Below are positions 7,126-16,024 of a stretch of 39,915 nucleotides of DNA, piece after piece. The translations under genes and the position numbers were made by a program. The stretch lies in the NCBI GenBank assembly GCA_902515765.1, contig CABXVZ010000009.1, positions 1-39,915 on the forward strand, written 5' to 3'. Below the pieces are notes generated by a model, which saw only the letters and a program-made list of their open reading frames with translations, was not told the origin of the DNA and searched no databases. Within the stretch, counting starts at the first letter, position 1. Every line of letters begins with the position of its first letter. This stretch comes from an uncultured Alphaproteobacteria bacterium. GTDB lineage: Bacteria; Pseudomonadota; Alphaproteobacteria; HIMB59.

Positions 7126-8394
7126 CTAAAGGGCTTTAGTTTTGTCGATAAATTGGTTTTCAAATTTTGCCAATTGTGGCATAAATTTAAACCAAGCATC
7201 TTTTAGTGCCTCTACAAACTTCTCAGTAGAGTCATTGGAATGGCAAGGTGTTGGGGTAATTCTTATTCTCTCAGTTCCTTTAGGGACTGTAGGATAATTA
7301 ATAGGCTGAACATATACTTGATGTTCATTTAATAAAAAATCGCTAATTTCTTTGCACAGCTTACTATCTCCTATTAAAACAGGGATAATGTGAGAACCAG
7401 AGTCTAAAAATGGAATTCCAGATTGACGTAATTCTTTTTTGACATAGTTAACATTTTCAAAAAAAGTATTTCTGAGTTCTTTATTCTTCTTGACTTGTTT
7501 AATGCTCTCTAAACTACCTGCGGCTACAGCAGGACACATCGAGGTGGTGAATATAAAGCCTTTAGAAAAGCTTCTGACAAAATCAATTATAGTATTAGAA
7601 GAGGCGATATAACCACCAGCAAGACCAAAGGCTTTAGCTAGTGTTCCGTTTATAATATCTATATGCTCTGATAATCCTTTTTCATCAGCTACTCCCGCAG
7701 CATTAGGTCCGTATAAACCTACTGCGTGAACTTCATCTAAATAAATTAGCGCTCCATTATCCTGAGCAACTTCAATTATATCCTCCAGGGGAGCGAAGTC
7801 TGACTCCATAGAATAAACAGACTCTAGGACAATTATTTTAGGTCTTGAAAAATCTACACCCTTAAGAATTTCTTTTAAATTTTTAACATTATTATGTTTA
7901 AAAATAGCTTTTTCTTTTTTACTAGCCCTAATACCTTCGATTAAAGAAGCGTGATTAAGTTCATCACTTAGCACTAAACAATTATCAAAGGCAGATATGA
8001 TCGACTTCAAAGCTGATTCATTAGCGCTGTATCCTGAGTTGAATGCAAGAGCCCTTTCTTTTTTATGTAAGTCAGCGATTTCCTTTTCTAATTGGATATG
8101 AAAGTTAGTTGTACCAGAAATATTTCTAGTGCCACCGCTACCAGCGCCTAGTTTTTCTGCAGCTGTTTGCATGGCAGAAATTACATGCTTATTCTGACTC
8201 ATTCCCAAATAATCATTAGAACACCAGACATCTATTTCTTCAGACCTACCTTTACTATGACGAGTTGCTTTGGGATATTGTCCAGCTTTTCTCTCGATAT
8301 TATTAAAAACTCTATAATGGCCTTCGTCTTTAATCTTATCAATCTCTAGTTCGAGTTTACTTAAATAATTTGATTTCCAATTATGGCTTTTCAC
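7126..8394 (-). CDS. hemA: 5-aminolevulinate synthase (C4 pathway)
   Basis: A 422-residue PLP enzyme condensing glycine and succinyl-CoA to 5-aminolevulinate, the first heme precursor in alphaproteobacteria. Visible features are CSNDYLGMS (58-66), GAGSGGTRNISGT (83-95), the PLP-contact DEVHAVG (220-226) and NGTLAKAFG (249-257), with Lys254 the Schiff-base lysine. The C-terminus has QPINYPTVPKGTERIRITPT, the typical glycine-site segment. The length is slightly above the usual 400-410 because of a C-terminal tail. This choice of ALA route, rather than glutamyl-tRNA reductase, marks the organism as alphaproteobacterial. It lies about 1.9 kb upstream of, and divergent from, the hemC-B-E-H-F run. 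Confidence 0.95.
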   Translation of the reverse strand: MKSHNWKSNYLSKLELEIDKIKDEGHYRVFNNIERKAGQYPKATRHSKGRSEEIDVWCSNDYLGMSQNKHVISAMQTAAEKLGAGSGGTRNISGTTNFHIQLEKEIADLHKKERALAFNSGYSANESALKSIISAFDNCLVLSDELNHASLIEGIRASKKEKAIFKHNNVKNLKEILKGVDFSRPKIIVLESVYSMESDFAPLEDIIEVAQDNGALIYLDEVHAVGLYGPNAAGVADEKGLSEHIDIINGTLAKAFGLAGGYIASSNTIIDFVRSFSKGFIFTTSMCPAVAAGSLESIKQVKKNKELRNTFFENVNYVKKELRQSGIPFLDSGSHIIPVLIGDSKLCKEISDFLLNEHQVYVQPINYPTVPKGTERIRITPTPCHSNDSTEKFVEALKDAWFKFMPQLAKFENQFIDKTKAL

Positions 8395-8473: not shown

Positions 8474-9478
8474 CTAGTTTAGCCTTGGAATAACTTCCGT
8501 ACCTATTAATTCAATTGATTTCAATAAATTATCATGAGTAATGTCTGCAATATCCATTTGAAATTGAAATCTATCTATTCCCCCTAGGGCCTCACTGTGT
8601 CTTCTAATTTTTTCAGAAACTTGCTCTGGATCTCCTAATACAATTGCTCCTAATGGCCCTGTTTGTTGATCAAATTGTTCTCTAGTAACTGGTCCCCATC
8701 CTCTTTCTCTCCCAATTTTAGTAAACATTTTTGCATAACCCTCATAATATAAATTAACAGCTTCATCCATACTCTTAGCAACGTAACCTAAAGAATGAAG
8801 ACCTACTTTTAATTTGTCAGGACCATGCCCTGCCTCTTTCCCCGCTTGTCTATAAATATCTACTAAAGGTCTGAATCTATGAGTATTGCCACCGATAATA
8901 GCAACCATTAGTGGTAGACCTAGGGTTCCCGCTCTAGCAAAAGATTGGGTAGTGCCTCCTACACCCAACCAAATTGGAACAGATTGTTGAATGGGTCTTG
9001 GGTAAATAGGTAAATTATTCAAAGCTGGTCGAAACTTTCCTGACCAATTAACAAACTCATTTTCTCTTATATTTAAAAGGAGATCGAGTTTTTCGATAAA
9101 TAAGTCGTCATAATCTTTAAAGTCAAAACCAAATAACGGAAATGCTTCCGAAAATGACCCCCTACCGGCAACCATCTCTGCCCTTCCGCCTGATATTAAA
9201 TCCAGCGTTGATAGGTTTTGAAAAACTCTTACAGGGTCAGCAGCACTGAGGACTGTAACTGCACTAATTAATTTTATATTTTTAGTGCGGGCAGCGGCGG
9301 CAGATAAAATCATAAAAGGTGCTGAGTCTAAGAACTCTTTGCGATGATGTTCTCCAATGCCAAATGTATTTAAACCAACCTTATCTGCAAATACAATTCT
9401 TTCAATAACGTTATTAATAGATTGGACACTATTTGCTCCTTCTCTTTTATCTGCAAAACTATCTATACCTATTTCCAA
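8474..9478 (-). CDS. LLM class flavin-dependent (luciferase-like) oxidoreductase
   Basis: A 334-residue TIM-barrel member of the bacterial luciferase family. Supporting segments are FGIGEHHRKEF (about 39-49), TKNIKLISAVTVLSAADPVRVFQNLSTLDL, SGGRAEMVAGRGSFSEAFPLFGF (the flavin-phosphate region), and PIWLGVGGT (about 166-174). Such enzymes use reduced FMN and O2 for monooxygenation or desulfonation, or act as F420-like reductases; the substrate cannot be read from sequence. The SDR gene lies 8 nt upstream on the same strand, so the two probably form a two-gene operon acting on one pathway. Sequence is more conserved-looking and slightly less AT-rich than the flanking hem genes. Confidence 0.85.
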   Translation of the reverse strand: MEIGIDSFADKREGANSVQSINNVIERIVFADKVGLNTFGIGEHHRKEFLDSAPFMILSAAAARTKNIKLISAVTVLSAADPVRVFQNLSTLDLISGGRAEMVAGRGSFSEAFPLFGFDFKDYDDLFIEKLDLLLNIRENEFVNWSGKFRPALNNLPIYPRPIQQSVPIWLGVGGTTQSFARAGTLGLPLMVAIIGGNTHRFRPLVDIYRQAGKEAGHGPDKLKVGLHSLGYVAKSMDEAVNLYYEGYAKMFTKIGRERGWGPVTREQFDQQTGPLGAIVLGDPEQVSEKIRRHSEALGGIDRFQFQMDIADITHDNLLKSIELIGTEVIPRLN

Positions 9479-9486
9479 ATTTTTAA

Positions 9487-10164
9487 CTAAAATTTTTCAG
9501 TGTTTGACCTAATCTCAACTTCCCAAGACCAAGCAGATTTATCTTGTTCATAAAAATTTAGATATTGTTTTGCGATCTCATCAGGATGAACCATTTGATA
9601 GTCTCCAATTGGTTTTCTACCAATTCCCCCGTCAATGATAAAATGTCCTATGTGGATATTTTGAGGATGAAGCTCCCTTGCAAGAGATTGTGCTAAACCT
9701 CGAAGACCAAATTTACCAATTGCAAATGAAGCTGATTTTGCAAATCCTTTAATGCTTGCGGAGGATCCTGTAAAAAAGATATTTCCCCCACCTTCTTCTA
9801 ACATTCTTTTTGCAGCTTCTTGAGCTACAAGGAAGGCTCCGTAACTATTAACCTTTATAGTTTCAAGCATTTCATCTTGATCAAATTCTATGAATGGTTT
9901 AATGATTCTTAAGGAGGGGTTATAAATAACAATATTAGGTGTTCCTAATATTTTGTCAGTTTCTTCAAATAAATTTTTAACACTATTTTTATCTGAAGAG
10001 TCACAACTAAAGAGTTCAGCCCCTATCTCATCTTTTAAAGAATTTAGCTTATCTGTATTTCTAGCTACTAAACCAATTTTCATACCTTTGGCATGGAATG
10101 TTCTAGCTAAAGATGTGCTCAGACCTGGACCAGAACCCACAATTAACAGAGATTTTTGACTCAT
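9487..10164 (-). CDS. SDR family oxidoreductase with Phe in place of the catalytic Tyr
   Basis: A 225-residue short-chain dehydrogenase fold. The cofactor loop is LIVGSGPGLSTSLA (about 7-20), a GxGxGxS-like variant; the downstream elements are SCDSSDK, YNPSL (the NNAG position) and GSSASIKG (catalytic Ser region). At the active site the usual YxxxK reads FAIGK, in ASFAIGKFGLRGLAQSLAREL, so the catalytic Tyr is Phe. A group of SDRs with FAxAKFALRALAQ-type sequences shares this, so it is probably a subfamily trait and not a mutation. Reductase activity is therefore doubtful and a different role is possible. It shares an operon with the downstream LLM gene and diverges from hemC. Confidence 0.82.
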   Translation of the reverse strand: MSQKSLLIVGSGPGLSTSLARTFHAKGMKIGLVARNTDKLNSLKDEIGAELFSCDSSDKNSVKNLFEETDKILGTPNIVIYNPSLRIIKPFIEFDQDEMLETIKVNSYGAFLVAQEAAKRMLEEGGGNIFFTGSSASIKGFAKSASFAIGKFGLRGLAQSLARELHPQNIHIGHFIIDGGIGRKPIGDYQMVHPDEIAKQYLNFYEQDKSAWSWEVEIRSNTEKF

Positions 10165-10278: not shown

Positions 10279-11757
10279 ATGAAAAATTTAATTTTATCAT
10301 CGCGAAAAAGTTTCTTAGCTAGAATTCAAACAAGAATAGCTTCAGAAAAAATAAAAAAATATTTTTCTGGCATTATACAATTTGATTATTCTAACTCTTT
10401 AGGAGATACCGACTATTCAAAGAAAGCTTGGGAAAATCATGGTTTTGGGATTTTTACTAATACTTTAAGTAAAAAATTAATAAATAAAGAGGTAGATGTT
10501 GTTGTTCATTCATTTAAAGACTTACCAGTAAAGAGATCAAATAAATTATCATACATGTGTCTTGAAAGAGAAGATCCTAGAGATGTTGTCTTAATAAAAA
10601 AAACTTCTTTAAAGAAAAAAAAATTGGTTATAGCTACCTCTTCCCCCAGAAGAGAATACTATTTAAAATTATTAAAAGACTTTCTTCCTTATCAAAATTT
10701 AAAATCGGAACCTATTAGAGGCAATATTCAAACTCGATTAGAAAAAATATTAATATCTAATAATCAAGATGGGGTTTTTATAGCTAAAGCTGCAATTGAT
10801 AGAATTTTTAAATATGGGGGAAAAGTAAGCTTAAAAGAATATAAAAAATTTAAATTTATTTTTCAAAAGTTTGAAAAAATTATACTTCCATTATCAGAAT
10901 TTCCTAGTGCGGCAGCTCAAGGTTGCATAGTCTTAGAATTTAGAAAAGATGACCTTAAAATAAAGAGGATATTAAATAAAATAAATCATATTTCTTCACT
11001 GGAAGATTGTTTGATGGAAAGAAAATATTTAGCAAAATGGGGTGGAGGTTGTGCTCTAGATATCGGGGTTACAATAGAAAATTTCCTAGATAAAAAAGTA
11101 TTATTCACAAGAGGACGAGACGCTCATACAAAAAAATATTTTAAAGAGAAAAAATATCTTAACAAAATTAATACCAAAAAAGTTCAAAATGTATTCCCTT
11201 CAAAGCTCTCCAAATATCAAATGTTTAAAAGAGAATTAAATGACTTTTCAAAAAAATTAGATAACAAAAATCTTTTGCTTACAAGAGGTGACTATAAAGA
11301 GACTAAATCATTGAAAAATGCATCTAATATTACTACTTCCGGTATTTCTACTTGGAAGAAAATCAATCAAAAAGGTATTTTAGTTAATTCCACCTTGGAT
11401 GGATTTGGTGAGGATTATCGAGAAATTGAAGACTATTATAAAAGTAAGAAAGCACCACTTTTTAAACTATCTTATAAAGGAAATTCTTTTAAATCGAAAT
11501 ATTCAATAATTTCTCATTATAGCTTAGTTCCCTCCATTAATGAATTTACAGTTGATAGTTTATTCATTTCAGAAAGCTTTTATTGGATGAGTTTTTCGGC
11601 CTTTAATCTTGCCATACAATTAAGGCCTGATATTTTAAATAAGCGTAATTCCTGTGGACCAGGACAAACTTATCAGCAGATATCTAGATTTATTTCCAAA
11701 GAGAATTTAAACATATATCTTAGTTATGAAGATTTTAAAAAATATGAACTAAAATGA
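10279..11757 (+). CDS. hemC: Hydroxymethylbilane synthase with a ~185-residue C-terminal extension (possible HemD-like domain)
   Basis: Residues 1-300 are porphobilinogen deaminase: SSRKSFLARIQT (7-18), VVVHSFKDLPV (74-84) with catalytic Asp81, ATSSPRRE (119-126), EPIRGNIQTRL (144-154), AAQGCIVLEF (212-221) and KWGGGCALDIG (253-263), with Cys258 the dipyrromethane anchor. It polymerises four porphobilinogens to hydroxymethylbilane. The protein is 492 residues against about 310 for normal HemC. The extra part (about 305-492) alternates strands and helices and ends with DSLFISESFYWMSFSAFNL, then CGPGQTYQQISRF and LNIYLSYEDF. That order (strand, helix, GxxT-like turn, helix, final strand) resembles the second half of uroporphyrinogen III synthase. 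No separate hemD occurs in this otherwise complete cluster, so a HemC-HemD-type fusion is my inference. The stop overlaps the hemB ATG by 4 nt. Confidence 0.88.
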   Translation: MKNLILSSRKSFLARIQTRIASEKIKKYFSGIIQFDYSNSLGDTDYSKKAWENHGFGIFTNTLSKKLINKEVDVVVHSFKDLPVKRSNKLSYMCLEREDPRDVVLIKKTSLKKKKLVIATSSPRREYYLKLLKDFLPYQNLKSEPIRGNIQTRLEKILISNNQDGVFIAKAAIDRIFKYGGKVSLKEYKKFKFIFQKFEKIILPLSEFPSAAAQGCIVLEFRKDDLKIKRILNKINHISSLEDCLMERKYLAKWGGGCALDIGVTIENFLDKKVLFTRGRDAHTKKYFKEKKYLNKINTKKVQNVFPSKLSKYQMFKRELNDFSKKLDNKNLLLTRGDYKETKSLKNASNITTSGISTWKKINQKGILVNSTLDGFGEDYREIEDYYKSKKAPLFKLSYKGNSFKSKYSIISHYSLVPSINEFTVDSLFISESFYWMSFSAFNLAIQLRPDILNKRNSCGPGQTYQQISRFISKENLNIYLSYEDFKKYELK

Positions 11758-12674
11758 AAATATACTTTCCAAATAAATCATCATCCAATTTAAGTAAAAA
11801 GATGCTAATTCAACCGATATTTGTTGATCAACGTCTCAAAGTCAAAAAAAAAATAAAAGGACTAGGTAATAATTATAGCTGGACACAATCTACTATTACA
11901 AAGGCCATTGAAACTGATCTTAAAAAAGGAATAACAAATTTTTTGTTATTTATTGTCCCTACAGATAAACAAAAATTACCTGAGGATTTTAGTTTTCATT
12001 ATGATGTAATCCACAACCTTAAAAAAAAATTTAAAAAAGATATAACTTTATTAATTGATACTTGTTTATGCTCCATTACTCCTGATGGTCATTGTGGTAT
12101 TTCTCATAAGAAAAAAATTGATTTAAAACAAACTCATTATGCTCTGGGTTTAGCTGCCAATACTTATCTAGAGGCAGGAGCGGACATTATCGCTCCTAGT
12201 GATATGATGAAAAACACTACCCGCTACCTTAGAAAAATTTTCAATGAAAATGGTTTTCATCAATCTCAAATCATGAGCTATTCAACTAAATTTAAAAGTG
12301 GTTTTTATGGTCCCTTTAGAGATGCAGCAAACTCATCCCCAAAAGGGTTTGATCGTTCCTCTTATCAACTGCCAGTGACTGATAGAAATAAAGCTATTAA
12401 TAGCTCCATTATAAATGCTGCCCAAGGAGCTAATTATTTAATGGTTAAGCCTGGAATGACTTCTATTGACTTAATTGCTGATATAAAGAGAGAAACATTA
12501 TTGCCCACTGGGGCTTATCAGGTCAGCGGTGAATTTGCTAGCTTACAGCTTTTAGAAGCCAATAAATTAGGTAAATATATTGATCTCTTAAATGAGTCTT
12601 TAAATGTATTTTCCAGAGCTAAAGCAGACTTTATTATTACTTATGGAGCCAGAGATATTGTCAAATATTTATAA
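11754..12674 (+). CDS. hemB: Delta-aminolevulinic acid dehydratase (porphobilinogen synthase)
   Basis: A 306-residue enzyme that joins two ALA molecules to porphobilinogen. The active-site metal motif is LIDTCLCSITPDGHCGI, giving the zinc ligands Cys104, Cys106 and Cys114. The two Schiff-base lysines are present: Lys179 in MSYSTKFKSGFYGPFRDA and Lys232 in YLMVKPGM. YQVSGEFASL follows, as in the family. The enzyme is about 20 residues shorter than usual, mainly at the N-terminal arm (it begins directly with a strand region before IQPIFV), which could affect octamer assembly. It is translationally coupled to hemC (ATGA overlap) and overlaps hemE by about 32 nt. Confidence 0.95.
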   Translation: MKIYFPNKSSSNLSKKMLIQPIFVDQRLKVKKKIKGLGNNYSWTQSTITKAIETDLKKGITNFLLFIVPTDKQKLPEDFSFHYDVIHNLKKKFKKDITLLIDTCLCSITPDGHCGISHKKKIDLKQTHYALGLAANTYLEAGADIIAPSDMMKNTTRYLRKIFNENGFHQSQIMSYSTKFKSGFYGPFRDAANSSPKGFDRSSYQLPVTDRNKAINSSIINAAQGANYLMVKPGMTSIDLIADIKRETLLPTGAYQVSGEFASLQLLEANKLGKYIDLLNESLNVFSRAKADFIITYGARDIVKYL

Positions 12675-13659
12675 CAAGAGATTTCATAACTCACTTCAAA
12701 AAAAAGAACAAGATGTTCCTCCTATTTGGATGATGCGCCAAGCTGGCCGATATCATAAACACTATCAAAATTTAAAAAAAAAATACACATTTGAACAACT
12801 ATGTCGAAATCCTGAGCTTGCTTGTGAAGTAACATTAGGTCCTATTCTAGATTTTGATTTTGATGCAGCCATATTATTTAGTGATATTCTGTTTCCTTTA
12901 GATTATTTAGGAATGAAACTATCTTTTAGCCCTGGTCCAGTATTTCAAAATAATCTTACTCATCTAATGCTAAATCAGTATAATATAGATGAATTTGATG
13001 ACTACATCCAATTTCAAAATCAATCTCTTCAATTAATTCGTAAAAGCTTACCCAAAGATAAAGCATTAATAGGATTTGTAGGAGGGCCAATAACCCTTTA
13101 TCACTTTGCTATTAGAAATAATCCTATAGCTGATAATCTACTTTCTACAGCTATTCCTGTGTTAGAGAATATTTTATTTAAAAATATTGAGATACAACTT
13201 CGAAATGATATCGACTTGTTGATGATTTTTGACACTGAAGCAAACAACCTTAATGATGAGGATTTTATAAAACTTAGCATCCCTTTTATTGAGAAAGTAT
13301 CTAACAAGTACCCTAATAAAATAGGATATTTCACAAAAAATATATCCTCCAATAAATTTCAAGAATTAAAAAAAATTAACTCGTTAAAACTAACCGTACT
13401 TGGCACTCGATATAATCTCCTTGAGGAACTTTCACAAACACACTTAAGCCTCCAAGGAAATTTTTCAAATGAACTTTTAACAATAACTGACCAAGATGAT
13501 TTTATGTCAACTTTAAATGAGTTCATAAATTTTTATCAGTCTCACAGTCCTCTCCAAAGGGCTGGATGGATTGCTAGTCTTGATCATGGCGTTCAAAAGA
13601 GTACACCTGAGAGAAATATTCACCTTTTCATTGAGCATATAAGAACTAAATTATGTTGA
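12643..13659 (+). CDS. hemE: Uroporphyrinogen decarboxylase
   Basis: A 338-residue enzyme decarboxylating uroporphyrinogen III to coproporphyrinogen III. Signatures are PPIWMMRQAGRYHKHY (26-41), AAILFSDILFPLDYLGM (75-91) with the catalytic Asp81, and GFVGGPITLYHFAI; the C-terminus has SLDHGVQKSTPERN where relatives have NLGHG. I chose ATG at 12643, which places PxWxMRQAGR at a normal distance from the start. A farther ATG at 12604 would add 13 residues inside hemB, and TTG at 12658 is also possible. With the chosen start, hemE overlaps the end of hemB by 32 nt. The middle is divergent but all expected blocks are there. Confidence 0.93.
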   Translation: MEPEILSNIYNKRFHNSLQKKEQDVPPIWMMRQAGRYHKHYQNLKKKYTFEQLCRNPELACEVTLGPILDFDFDAAILFSDILFPLDYLGMKLSFSPGPVFQNNLTHLMLNQYNIDEFDDYIQFQNQSLQLIRKSLPKDKALIGFVGGPITLYHFAIRNNPIADNLLSTAIPVLENILFKNIEIQLRNDIDLLMIFDTEANNLNDEDFIKLSIPFIEKVSNKYPNKIGYFTKNISSNKFQELKKINSLKLTVLGTRYNLLEELSQTHLSLQGNFSNELLTITDQDDFMSTLNEFINFYQSHSPLQRAGWIASLDHGVQKSTPERNIHLFIEHIRTKLC

Positions 13660-13677
13660 AAAACGTACATTTTTATA

Positions 13678-14700
13678 ATGGCATCATTTAAAGGCAATAA
13701 ACACTACGTTCATGACTCTGGACTTAAGACTGGTGTTCTTCTGACTAATTTAGGAACTCCCGATGAACCAACTATCCCCTCTTTAAAAAAATATTTAAGA
13801 CAATTTCTCTCCGATGGAAGAGTTATTGAAACTCCCAAAGCTATTTGGTGGTTAATTTTAAATGGTATTATTTTAAATACTCGTCCAGCTAAATCAGCCA
13901 AAAATTATAAATCAGTTTGGACTGAGGAGGGCTCACCTCTTCTGCTTTATACTAAAAAACAAAAAGAGCTTATCAAAAGTCATTTAGAGAAAAAGTATTC
14001 TAATTTAGTCTTTGATATAGGGATGAGATACGGCAATCCTAGCATTAAAAAAGGACTTAATAATTTACGTAATCAAAATTGTGATCGGATTGTAGTTCTT
14101 CCATTATATCCTCAATACTGTGCTGCTACTACAGGCTCTACTTTTGATGCTGTTTCTGAAGAGCTACAACAGTGGAGATGGGTTCCATCACTAAGGTTTA
14201 TTGGAAGTTACTATGATCAACCCTTATACATAAAAGCTTTAAAAAATAGTATAGAAGATTTTTGGAGTAAGAATAAAAAACCCTCTAAATTAATTTTTAG
14301 TTATCATGGGATTCCAAAAAAATATTTAGATAAAGGAGATCCCTACCATTGCTTTTGTAGAAAAACTACAAGATTAGTTGCAGAAGAAATGAAACTTTCT
14401 GAAGGTAGCTATATGACAACTTTTCAGTCAAGATTTGGTCCGGCAGAATGGCTACAACCTTATACAGATAAAACTATTGAGAGTTTAGCTAAAGATGGAG
14501 TAGAAAATATTCATGTAATCAGCCCAGCATTTTCCTCTGACTGTTTAGAAACGATTGAGGAACTTAATGAAGAAAATAGAGAGATATTTATGGAAAATGG
14601 TGGAAAGGAATTTGGATATATTCCTTGTCTTAATGATCGAGAAGACCATATTAACTTACTTACTTCGTTGTTAGAAAACGAATTACATGGTTGGGTATGA
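13678..14700 (+). CDS. hemH: Ferrochelatase
   Basis: A 340-residue ferrochelatase inserting Fe2+ into protoporphyrin IX, the last step of heme synthesis. Visible features are GVLLTNLGTPDEPT (19-32), LPLYPQYCAATTGSTFDAV (141-159), the catalytic His210 in FSYHGIPKKY, GDPYHCFCRKTTRL (220-233), and TTFQSRFGPAEWLQPYTD. The acidic segment CLETIEELNEENREIF carries the conserved Glu of the active site. No transmembrane tail is present. It lies 18 nt behind hemE and ends in an ATGA overlap with hemF, so it is expressed with its pathway neighbours, although in reaction order it comes after HemF and HemG. Confidence 0.95.
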   Translation: MASFKGNKHYVHDSGLKTGVLLTNLGTPDEPTIPSLKKYLRQFLSDGRVIETPKAIWWLILNGIILNTRPAKSAKNYKSVWTEEGSPLLLYTKKQKELIKSHLEKKYSNLVFDIGMRYGNPSIKKGLNNLRNQNCDRIVVLPLYPQYCAATTGSTFDAVSEELQQWRWVPSLRFIGSYYDQPLYIKALKNSIEDFWSKNKKPSKLIFSYHGIPKKYLDKGDPYHCFCRKTTRLVAEEMKLSEGSYMTTFQSRFGPAEWLQPYTDKTIESLAKDGVENIHVISPAFSSDCLETIEELNEENREIFMENGGKEFGYIPCLNDREDHINLLTSLLENELHGWV

Positions 14701-15515
14701 GTGATAAAATAAAAGATCAACAGAATAAGGCAGAAAAATGGTTTCAACAACTTCGAAATCAGATGGTAGGTGCCATCCAAAATCTGGACGGATCAGCCTT
14801 TATGGAAAAAAAATGGGAACGACCAGGTGGTGGTGGTGGTTTAATGTCTATATCAAAAGGTAATCTTTTTGAAAAAGTTGGAGTGAATATTTCTACTGTC
14901 TACGGTGAATTTAGTGAAGAATTTAGAGAAAGCATGCCAGGTACAGAAGAAGATCCTAGTTTTTGGGCTAGTGGAATTTCTGTTGTGGCCCATATGAAAA
15001 ACCCAAAAATAGCTGCAGCTCATTTTAACACTCGATATATTTCCACTAAAGGCAATCAATGGTTTGGTGGGGGCTGTGATTTGACACCTGCAATTCCTGA
15101 GAAAATAGAAACAACAAATTTTCATGAAGGTCTTGAACGAACTTGCAATCAACATGATGAAGGTTACTACAATAATTTTAAGAAACAATGTGATGATTAT
15201 TTTTACTTAAAGCATCGAAAAGAACCCAGAGGGATTGGGGGTATATTCTTTGATTATGTTAATACAAATTTTGAGAAAGACTTTTCTTTTATTAAAGATA
15301 CAGGTCAATATTTTATTAATTTTTTAATTGATAACACAAAAAGGAAAAAAGATTTTGAATTTGATCAAAATGATTTAATTACTCTTTCAAAGAAAAGGTC
15401 TCGGTATGTAGAATTTAATCTTTTATATGATCGAGGAACTTTATTTGGTCTTAAAACAGGTGGGAATATAGATGCTATACTTATGTCTATGCCACCAAAT
15501 GCGAACTGGGATTAG
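14697..15515 (+). CDS. hemF: Oxygen-dependent coproporphyrinogen III oxidase
   Basis: A 272-residue aerobic coproporphyrinogen oxidase. The conserved blocks are WERPGGGGGLM (40-50), GVNISTVYGEF (62-72), ASGISVVAHMKNP (91-103), AAAHFNTRYI (107-116), WFGGGCDLTP (122-131), PRGIGGIFFDYVNT (177-190) and the C-terminal SRYVEFNLLYDRGTLFGLKT, GNIDAILMSMPP. It oxidatively decarboxylates coproporphyrinogen III to protoporphyrinogen IX using O2. I start at ATG 14697, which overlaps the hemH stop as ATGA, instead of the TTG at 14691. It is somewhat shorter than the about 300 residues of E. coli HemF. The last 4 nt overlap convergent hemG. No oxygen-independent HemN is in the window. Confidence 0.95.
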   Translation: MSDKIKDQQNKAEKWFQQLRNQMVGAIQNLDGSAFMEKKWERPGGGGGLMSISKGNLFEKVGVNISTVYGEFSEEFRESMPGTEEDPSFWASGISVVAHMKNPKIAAAHFNTRYISTKGNQWFGGGCDLTPAIPEKIETTNFHEGLERTCNQHDEGYYNNFKKQCDDYFYLKHRKEPRGIGGIFFDYVNTNFEKDFSFIKDTGQYFINFLIDNTKRKKDFEFDQNDLITLSKKRSRYVEFNLLYDRGTLFGLKTGGNIDAILMSMPPNANWD

Positions 15516-16024
15516 ATAAGATCTATATCTTTCGAGAAAAGATCTACCTCTTTCCAATCTGTAAAATCATAACTTTTAGAAGTATCAGTGGGTCCCTTAG
15601 TAATCCACATAATCAATTTGATAATATTTTTATCTATAAATCCATAATTGGGGAAATCTATTTTTCCAGCAAAAACACCAAGTTTGTCAGGTAACCATTC
15701 AGTCTTTTTTAAAAATTTTTTTATGTAAGGATTTGTAGAAGGCTTATTTTTTTCTATTTTTCTAGCAGTTACATTTACTGAGAAAAAGGTAGTTCTTTTA
15801 CTTTCAAGTAGTGATTTATTGTTTTTTATAAATTTATATAAATTTTTACTGTGATCTCCATATCTCACTGATGCTCCTATAATTATATGATCAAAATTTT
15901 TTAAATCTCCAATTTTGATATCAGATATGCTTTCCATAGGTGAGTGACTAAAGTTATTTTGTAACCTCTGGCATATTTTTAAGGTTTGCCCATCTACGGA
16001 AGAGTAAATAATAAACTTTTTCAT
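15512..16024 (-). CDS. hemG: HemG-type protoporphyrinogen IX dehydrogenase (flavodoxin-like)
   Basis: A 170-residue flavodoxin-fold protein. The FMN phosphate loop is YSSVDGQTLKIC (7-18); GASVRYGDHSKNLYKFI and the long-loop segment NVTARKIEKNKPSTNPYIKK are diagnostic for HemG and set it apart from ordinary flavodoxins. LPDKLGVFAGKIDFPNYGF, IKLIMWITKGPTDTSKSYDF and TDWKEVD complete the match. It should oxidise protoporphyrinogen IX to protoporphyrin IX at the membrane, passing electrons to quinones. The gene faces hemF and overlaps it by 4 nt, so its place beside hemF and hemH makes biochemical sense. HemG is mostly a gammaproteobacterial form; most alphaproteobacteria use HemJ, so acquisition by transfer is plausible. 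Confidence 0.9.
   Translation of the reverse strand: MKKFIIYSSVDGQTLKICQRLQNNFSHSPMESISDIKIGDLKNFDHIIIGASVRYGDHSKNLYKFIKNNKSLLESKRTTFFSVNVTARKIEKNKPSTNPYIKKFLKKTEWLPDKLGVFAGKIDFPNYGFIDKNIIKLIMWITKGPTDTSKSYDFTDWKEVDLFSKDIDLI

Follow-up and report, generated by a model that had tools for sequence, protein, structure and literature searches.

The window, the whole stretch of 39,915 nucleotides analysed here, comes from an uncultured alphaproteobacterium of the HIMB59 order, whose nearest named relatives are genomes of that clade obtained from single cells and metagenomes, and carries a cluster of heme biosynthesis genes. The gene for the first enzyme of the pathway, ALA synthase (7126..8394, minus strand; TIGR01821, E 1e-174), is oriented divergently from an open reading frame for HemC (10279-11757, plus strand). 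Also on the plus strand follow hemB, encoding porphobilinogen synthase (11754..12674; PF00490), whose start codon overlaps the hemC stop codon in an ATGA according to the ORF coordinates; hemE, encoding the uroporphyrinogen decarboxylase that acts on uroporphyrinogen III (12604..13659; PF01208); hemH, encoding ferrochelatase (13678..14700; PF00762); and hemF, encoding the oxygen-dependent coproporphyrinogen oxidase (14691..15515; PF01218). A profile match identifies a Flavodoxin_5 gene of the HemG type on the minus strand at 15512-16024. From glycine and succinyl-CoA to heme, every step has a gene at this locus with the exception of uroporphyrinogen III synthase (HemD). A preliminary description had listed this set of heme genes without hemD, and the list is correct apart from its 'hemA', which encodes ALA synthase and not glutamyl-tRNA reductase.

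Between the genes for ALA synthase and HemC, the minus strand encodes a luciferase-like monooxygenase (LLM_2I7G family) and a short-chain dehydrogenase (8474-10164), a pair that is missing from that position in the related SAR11 cluster described below. The protoporphyrinogen oxidase seems to vary among the lineages that share the heme cluster. The window has the flavodoxin-type HemG, and in HIMB59 family f2 and the SAR11 genus g124 we found a HemJ-like membrane protein, recognized by eye, encoded after hemF (L076:8285-8704 and L209:12858-13313).

The HemC protein of the window is 492 amino acids long. Its first 285 residues (10279..11133, plus strand) form the porphobilinogen deaminase catalytic part, as identified by PF01379, TIGR00212, PDB and AlphaFold. 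PF01379 matches residues 5-229 (E 4e-41, 141 bits against a Pfam cut-off of 22.1), and TIGR00212, a model of 293 positions, matches residues 5-279 with a score of 166.3 against an NCBIfam cut-off of 164, leaving the last ~36 model positions unmatched. The match to deaminases in the PDB ends at residue ~271. The deaminase motifs HSFKDLP (residues 77-83; 10507..10527, plus strand), SSPRR (121-125), RGN and GGGC (255-258) are all present. HSFKDLP contains Asp81, which we take to be catalytic by its correspondence to E. coli Asp84 in established HemC knowledge, and GGGC ends in Cys258 (11050..11052, plus strand), the expected attachment site of the dipyrromethane cofactor and invariant in our alignments. 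With the catalytic Asp, the arginines and the cofactor Cys in place, the protein is a member of the HemC family (PF01379/TIGR00212), consisting of a full deaminase plus ~195 residues. These make up a C-terminal extension (residues 296-492; 11164..11754, plus strand) that is conserved in HemD-less lineages and is our proposed HemD domain. From residue ~280 to residue 492, the protein has no match in Pfam, NCBIfam or PDB. AlphaFold modeled most of residues 1-250 of the full-length protein confidently. Both the extra C-terminal part of a 492-residue HemC and the intact deaminase residues had been noted in the preliminary description, and the open reading frame and motifs bear this out. A literature search returned no account of this extension.

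Few enzymes of central metabolism are as poorly conserved as HemD, and genome annotations often list it as 'missing'. Because of this poor conservation, we supplemented PF02602 with a custom profile built from 29 HemD sequences of related bacteria, among them highly divergent SAR11-order ones, and searched 54 genomes with it. PF02602 had no match at E<=10 anywhere in the window's own genome (64% complete) and none over the cut-off in the HIMB59 order, including G030, a genome in one contig that is 99% complete. The same family is present in most other alphaproteobacterial families sampled. With the custom profile, the 39 genomes that encode an extended HemC yielded no credible HemD, the best hit (E 0.008) falling on a stretch with three stops. 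These 39 genomes belong to related lineages and hence do not represent 39 independent events. All 13 control genomes from HemD-bearing lineages were matched by the custom profile (E 1e-85 to 1e-12), among them G553 and G136, which lack a Pfam match over the cut-off. In three single-contig genomes that are 99-100% complete and encode an extended HemC (G030, G469 and G546), neither profile found a HemD. Weak PF02602 matches near hemC in HIMB59 family f2 lie in frames that, judged by eye, resemble an aminopeptidase and a methyltransferase of the RsmI type, and were set aside as chance. The extension is confined to genomes in which no HemD is detectable, and where the rest of the pathway is present it is the only candidate for the HemD step, in 39 genomes from five lineages. 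The preliminary description had allowed that a hemD might lie elsewhere in the genome; nothing credible turned up in the window's genome or in the other 38.

The extension is widespread in the HIMB59 order, occurring in 93/108 genomes that are at least 70% complete. We checked the 15 remaining genomes along with one that is less complete: in 14 of these assemblies hemC is absent altogether, and in two it is truncated at a contig edge. Across the order, we saw no intact hemC lacking the extension. Identity across the extension is 51-81% within the family and 31-40% between the two HIMB59 sister families, and the extension is a single open frame in nearly all copies, a sign that it is under long-term selection. 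To find further carriers, we screened alphaproteobacteria in which hemC is present and PF02602 finds nothing. This gave two more long HemC proteins, in G148 and G132; with these added, the extension was found in 14/18 genomes of the order to which G148 belongs. It is also encoded by G761, of another alphaproteobacterial lineage, and by G469 and G546, complete genomes of the SAR11 order that both belong to genus g124. In total, the carriers span five alphaproteobacterial lineages: the HIMB59 order, a second order, two single lineages and one SAR11 genus. The cluster of G761 (L206, G761:C1:12000-29000) has hemH, the ALA synthase gene, the extended hemC, hemB and hemE adjacent to each other, with no hemD, and continues with genes that look by eye HemN-like and amine-oxidase-like. 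No relative was found on viral contigs. At the start of one contig labelled Gammaproteobacteria (L059) lies the tail end of an extended HemC, 76% identical to that of the window; it is probably a mis-binned HIMB59 contig.

PF02602 is found in 73/78 genomes of the SAR11 order, and the only two genomes with the extension, G469 and G546, are among those without it. Of the other three genomes lacking a PF02602 match over the cut-off, G580 and G617 lack hemC too, and in G553 the HemD frame is interrupted by a stop. This last genome has a normal HemC, and the TAA that breaks its HemD frame (G553:C15:7360-7569) reflects either an assembly error or a recent loss. A maximum-likelihood tree built from only the deaminase part unites all the extended HemC proteins in a single clade (100/100); within it, the two SAR11 members are nested in the HIMB59 family group (100/100), well away from the HemC proteins of other SAR11 genomes. 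The cluster of the SAR11 genus, with the ALA synthase gene on the minus strand followed by hemC-hemB-hemE-hemH-hemF, has the same order as the window at 47-74% identity, and the SAR11 copies are more similar to the window cluster than are those of the HIMB59 sister family f2. On the simplest reading, the heme cluster was apparently passed between these groups and the SAR11 genus has lost its own hemD. The nesting of the SAR11 HemC proteins inside HIMB59 suggests that the transfer was from HIMB59 to SAR11. Loss of hemD in the recipient would be expected if the incoming cluster supplied HemD activity.

We also compared the extension with HemD at the level of sequence profiles, where the evidence for homology is suggestive. 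With a query of 15 diverse extensions, hhalign placed ~57 extension columns on HemD positions 41-105. In the window protein, the segment that aligns with HemD domain 2 covers residues 327-380 (11257..11418, plus strand) and holds the sequence SGISTW. The alignment pairs the HemD FTS-x-NAV strand with [IV]SR-x-NAL of the extension, and HemD VG-x-x-TA...G with SG-x-x-TWKKLAKRG. Its raw score of 21.8 was reached by 0/400 column shuffles (mean 12.2, maximum 19.0), and the decoys, ~20 profiles of neighboring genes, scored at most 17.5. Only 12-13 was reached by two decoy profiles in which HemD is part of a longer open frame. The same HemD region was chosen for 14/15 query rows, and the placement on the FTS strand was stable after sequences of the G148 order, together with L175 and L205, were added. 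By hhalign's own statistics the match is weak, with a probability of 1-3% and P of 0.01-0.05. An early setting had put an LLLTR strand of the extension at the N-terminal ILLTRP of HemD, which we dropped in favor of the stable FTS-strand placement, and global alignment was rejected as it misplaced segments. PF02602 itself had no match to the window protein, to 14 diverse extensions or to L205, even at E 1-10, which leaves the extension below the family cut-off; profile searches of PDB and Pfam with the extension returned nothing. The preliminary description had loosely likened the extension to the second half of HemD. Profile alignment begins ~40 residues into HemD, taking in the FTS strand and the VG..T turn; the C-terminal half around CGPGQT, taken alone, has no significant profile match to HemD.

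The most conserved residues of the extension are arranged in a manner reminiscent of HemD. T/S358, Y414, S438 and GPGxT464, all invariant or nearly so, occur in the same order as T124, Y189, S218 and T249 of human HemD (1jr2_A), with spacings of 56, 24 and 26 versus 65, 29 and 31. In native numbering, the human residues are presumably T103, Y168, S197 and T228. By order and similar spacing, the invariant Tyr414 (11518..11520, plus strand) is a candidate counterpart of the invariant Tyr of HemD. Spacing likewise makes the invariant Ser438, within FYWMSFSAF (residues 434-442; 11578..11604, plus strand), a candidate counterpart of the Ser in the HemD motif ffS/ySxxsA. The CGPGQTY turn (residues 459-465; 11653..11673, plus strand), in which GPGxT is invariant in our alignment, resembles the GPxTA turn of HemD, and at the corresponding point in the motif order human HemD reads IGPTTA. 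Thr358, Tyr414, Ser438 and Thr464 may be the residues that matter for activity. Compared with HemD proteins of PF02602 (human 1jr2, 3mw8 and 4es6), the extension would catalyze the same reaction, and it has profile similarity in the TS...VG..TA region and the same T/Y/S/GP..T order. It differs in being ~195 rather than ~240 residues long and below any family cut-off, in apparently lacking the first strand and helix (ILxTRP), and in possessing its own motifs (W, FYWMS and CGPGxT), which are strongly conserved. AlphaFold gave low confidence on the extension (pLDDT ~46 alone, roughly 25-45 in the full-length protein), probably because the input alignment is shallow.

Taken with the genomic pattern, these features make it likely that the window protein is a bifunctional hydroxymethylbilane synthase and uroporphyrinogen III synthase, with a HemD part that is probably shortened and highly diverged. 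The preliminary description had suggested that the missing HemD activity resides in the extension, and the exclusion of HemD together with the apparent SAR11 transfer argues for such an activity. In our model, the N-terminal part would convert four porphobilinogens to hydroxymethylbilane, and the C-terminal ~195 residues, probably a HemD homolog minus its first strand and helix, would close the ring with inversion of ring D to give uroporphyrinogen III. Hydroxymethylbilane otherwise closes spontaneously to the useless I isomer, and a fusion would suit such an intermediate: the unstable linear intermediate may be handed from one domain to the next by channeling. Uroporphyrinogen III would then pass to HemE, encoded in the same cluster.

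A possible, though rather unlikely, alternative is that the extension has uroporphyrinogen III synthase activity with a different fold, as a non-orthologous replacement, which as far as activity is concerned is a sub-case of the bifunctional enzyme. It could be non-homologous to HemD, or rebuilt so far, with the first strand and helix gone and WMSxSAF and CGPGxT motifs peculiar to it, that the cleft forms with HemC domain 3, and at this same tentative level would be a second structural solution to the ring-inverting closure on which all tetrapyrroles depend. The failure of 14 diverse extensions to match Pfam or PDB, the modest hhalign statistics and the low AlphaFold confidence are consistent with such an origin, but an unrelated fold would not lead us to expect the same HemD region to be selected by nearly all query rows, with a score above all shuffles and unrelated decoys, or invariant residues in the order found in HemD. 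It is improbable that the extension serves a regulatory or structural role for the deaminase while a non-homologous, unrecognized enzyme elsewhere makes uroporphyrinogen III. Our searches covered homologs of hemD, which leaves room for such an enzyme, but it would be needed in all five lineages and must have arrived in the SAR11 genus along with the heme cluster, and the HemC extension is the only uncharacterized element that we saw in common among these clusters.

We consider it very improbable that these genomes have an ordinary, if very divergent, HemD that escaped our searches or fell into the gaps of incomplete assemblies. Low conservation of the enzyme and the incompleteness of many genomes, including that of the window, would favor such an oversight, but the three single-contig genomes matched neither profile, and the same custom profile recovered the divergent HemD proteins of the SAR11 order as well as those of G553 and G136. 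Equally hard to credit is the idea that the extension is a relic in bacteria unable to make heme, whose pathway is decaying: PMC10308909 cites Kim 2021 as terming the HIMB59 clade heme-auxotrophic, with members listed as such, and reports heme transporters, but the window holds an intact cluster of the ALA synthase gene, hemB, hemC, hemE, hemF, the hemG-type gene and hemH, and the extension has stayed conserved between distant relatives, unlike a decaying sequence.

Returning to the bifunctional enzyme that we favor, a fusion of this kind has a precedent. The HemC-HemD fusion of Leptospira interrogans is described as having dual activity (Guegan 2003, cited in PMC8698207), combining deaminase and uroporphyrinogen III synthase in one polypeptide as proposed here. 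Going by its description in PMC8698207 as a plain fusion of two enzymes, the window protein differs in that its C-terminal part is shorter, is unseen by Pfam and NCBIfam, and is alphaproteobacterial. Plasmodium falciparum HMBS provides a warning for the present case. There, a missing HemD likewise led to the proposal that HemC does both, and the enzyme was once claimed to be bifunctional, but complementation and HPLC showed no such activity (PMC8698207). Plasmodium HMBS has no fused domain, whereas the window HemC has a real extra domain. As HemC-HemD fusion is, from what is cited of Leptospira, already known as a kind, what is new here is most likely a HemD part that lies beyond the reach of family models, in Alphaproteobacteria.

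If the extension is the synthase, the heme pathway looks complete in the genomes that we examined. Automatic annotation would then mark as incomplete a heme pathway that is whole in HIMB59/AEGEAN-169, an abundant marine group, in part of SAR11 and in three or more further lineages, a point of relevance to claims of heme auxotrophy among ocean bacteria. The extended HemC would also provide a small, fused form of the enzyme in which to study the little-understood ring-inversion step.
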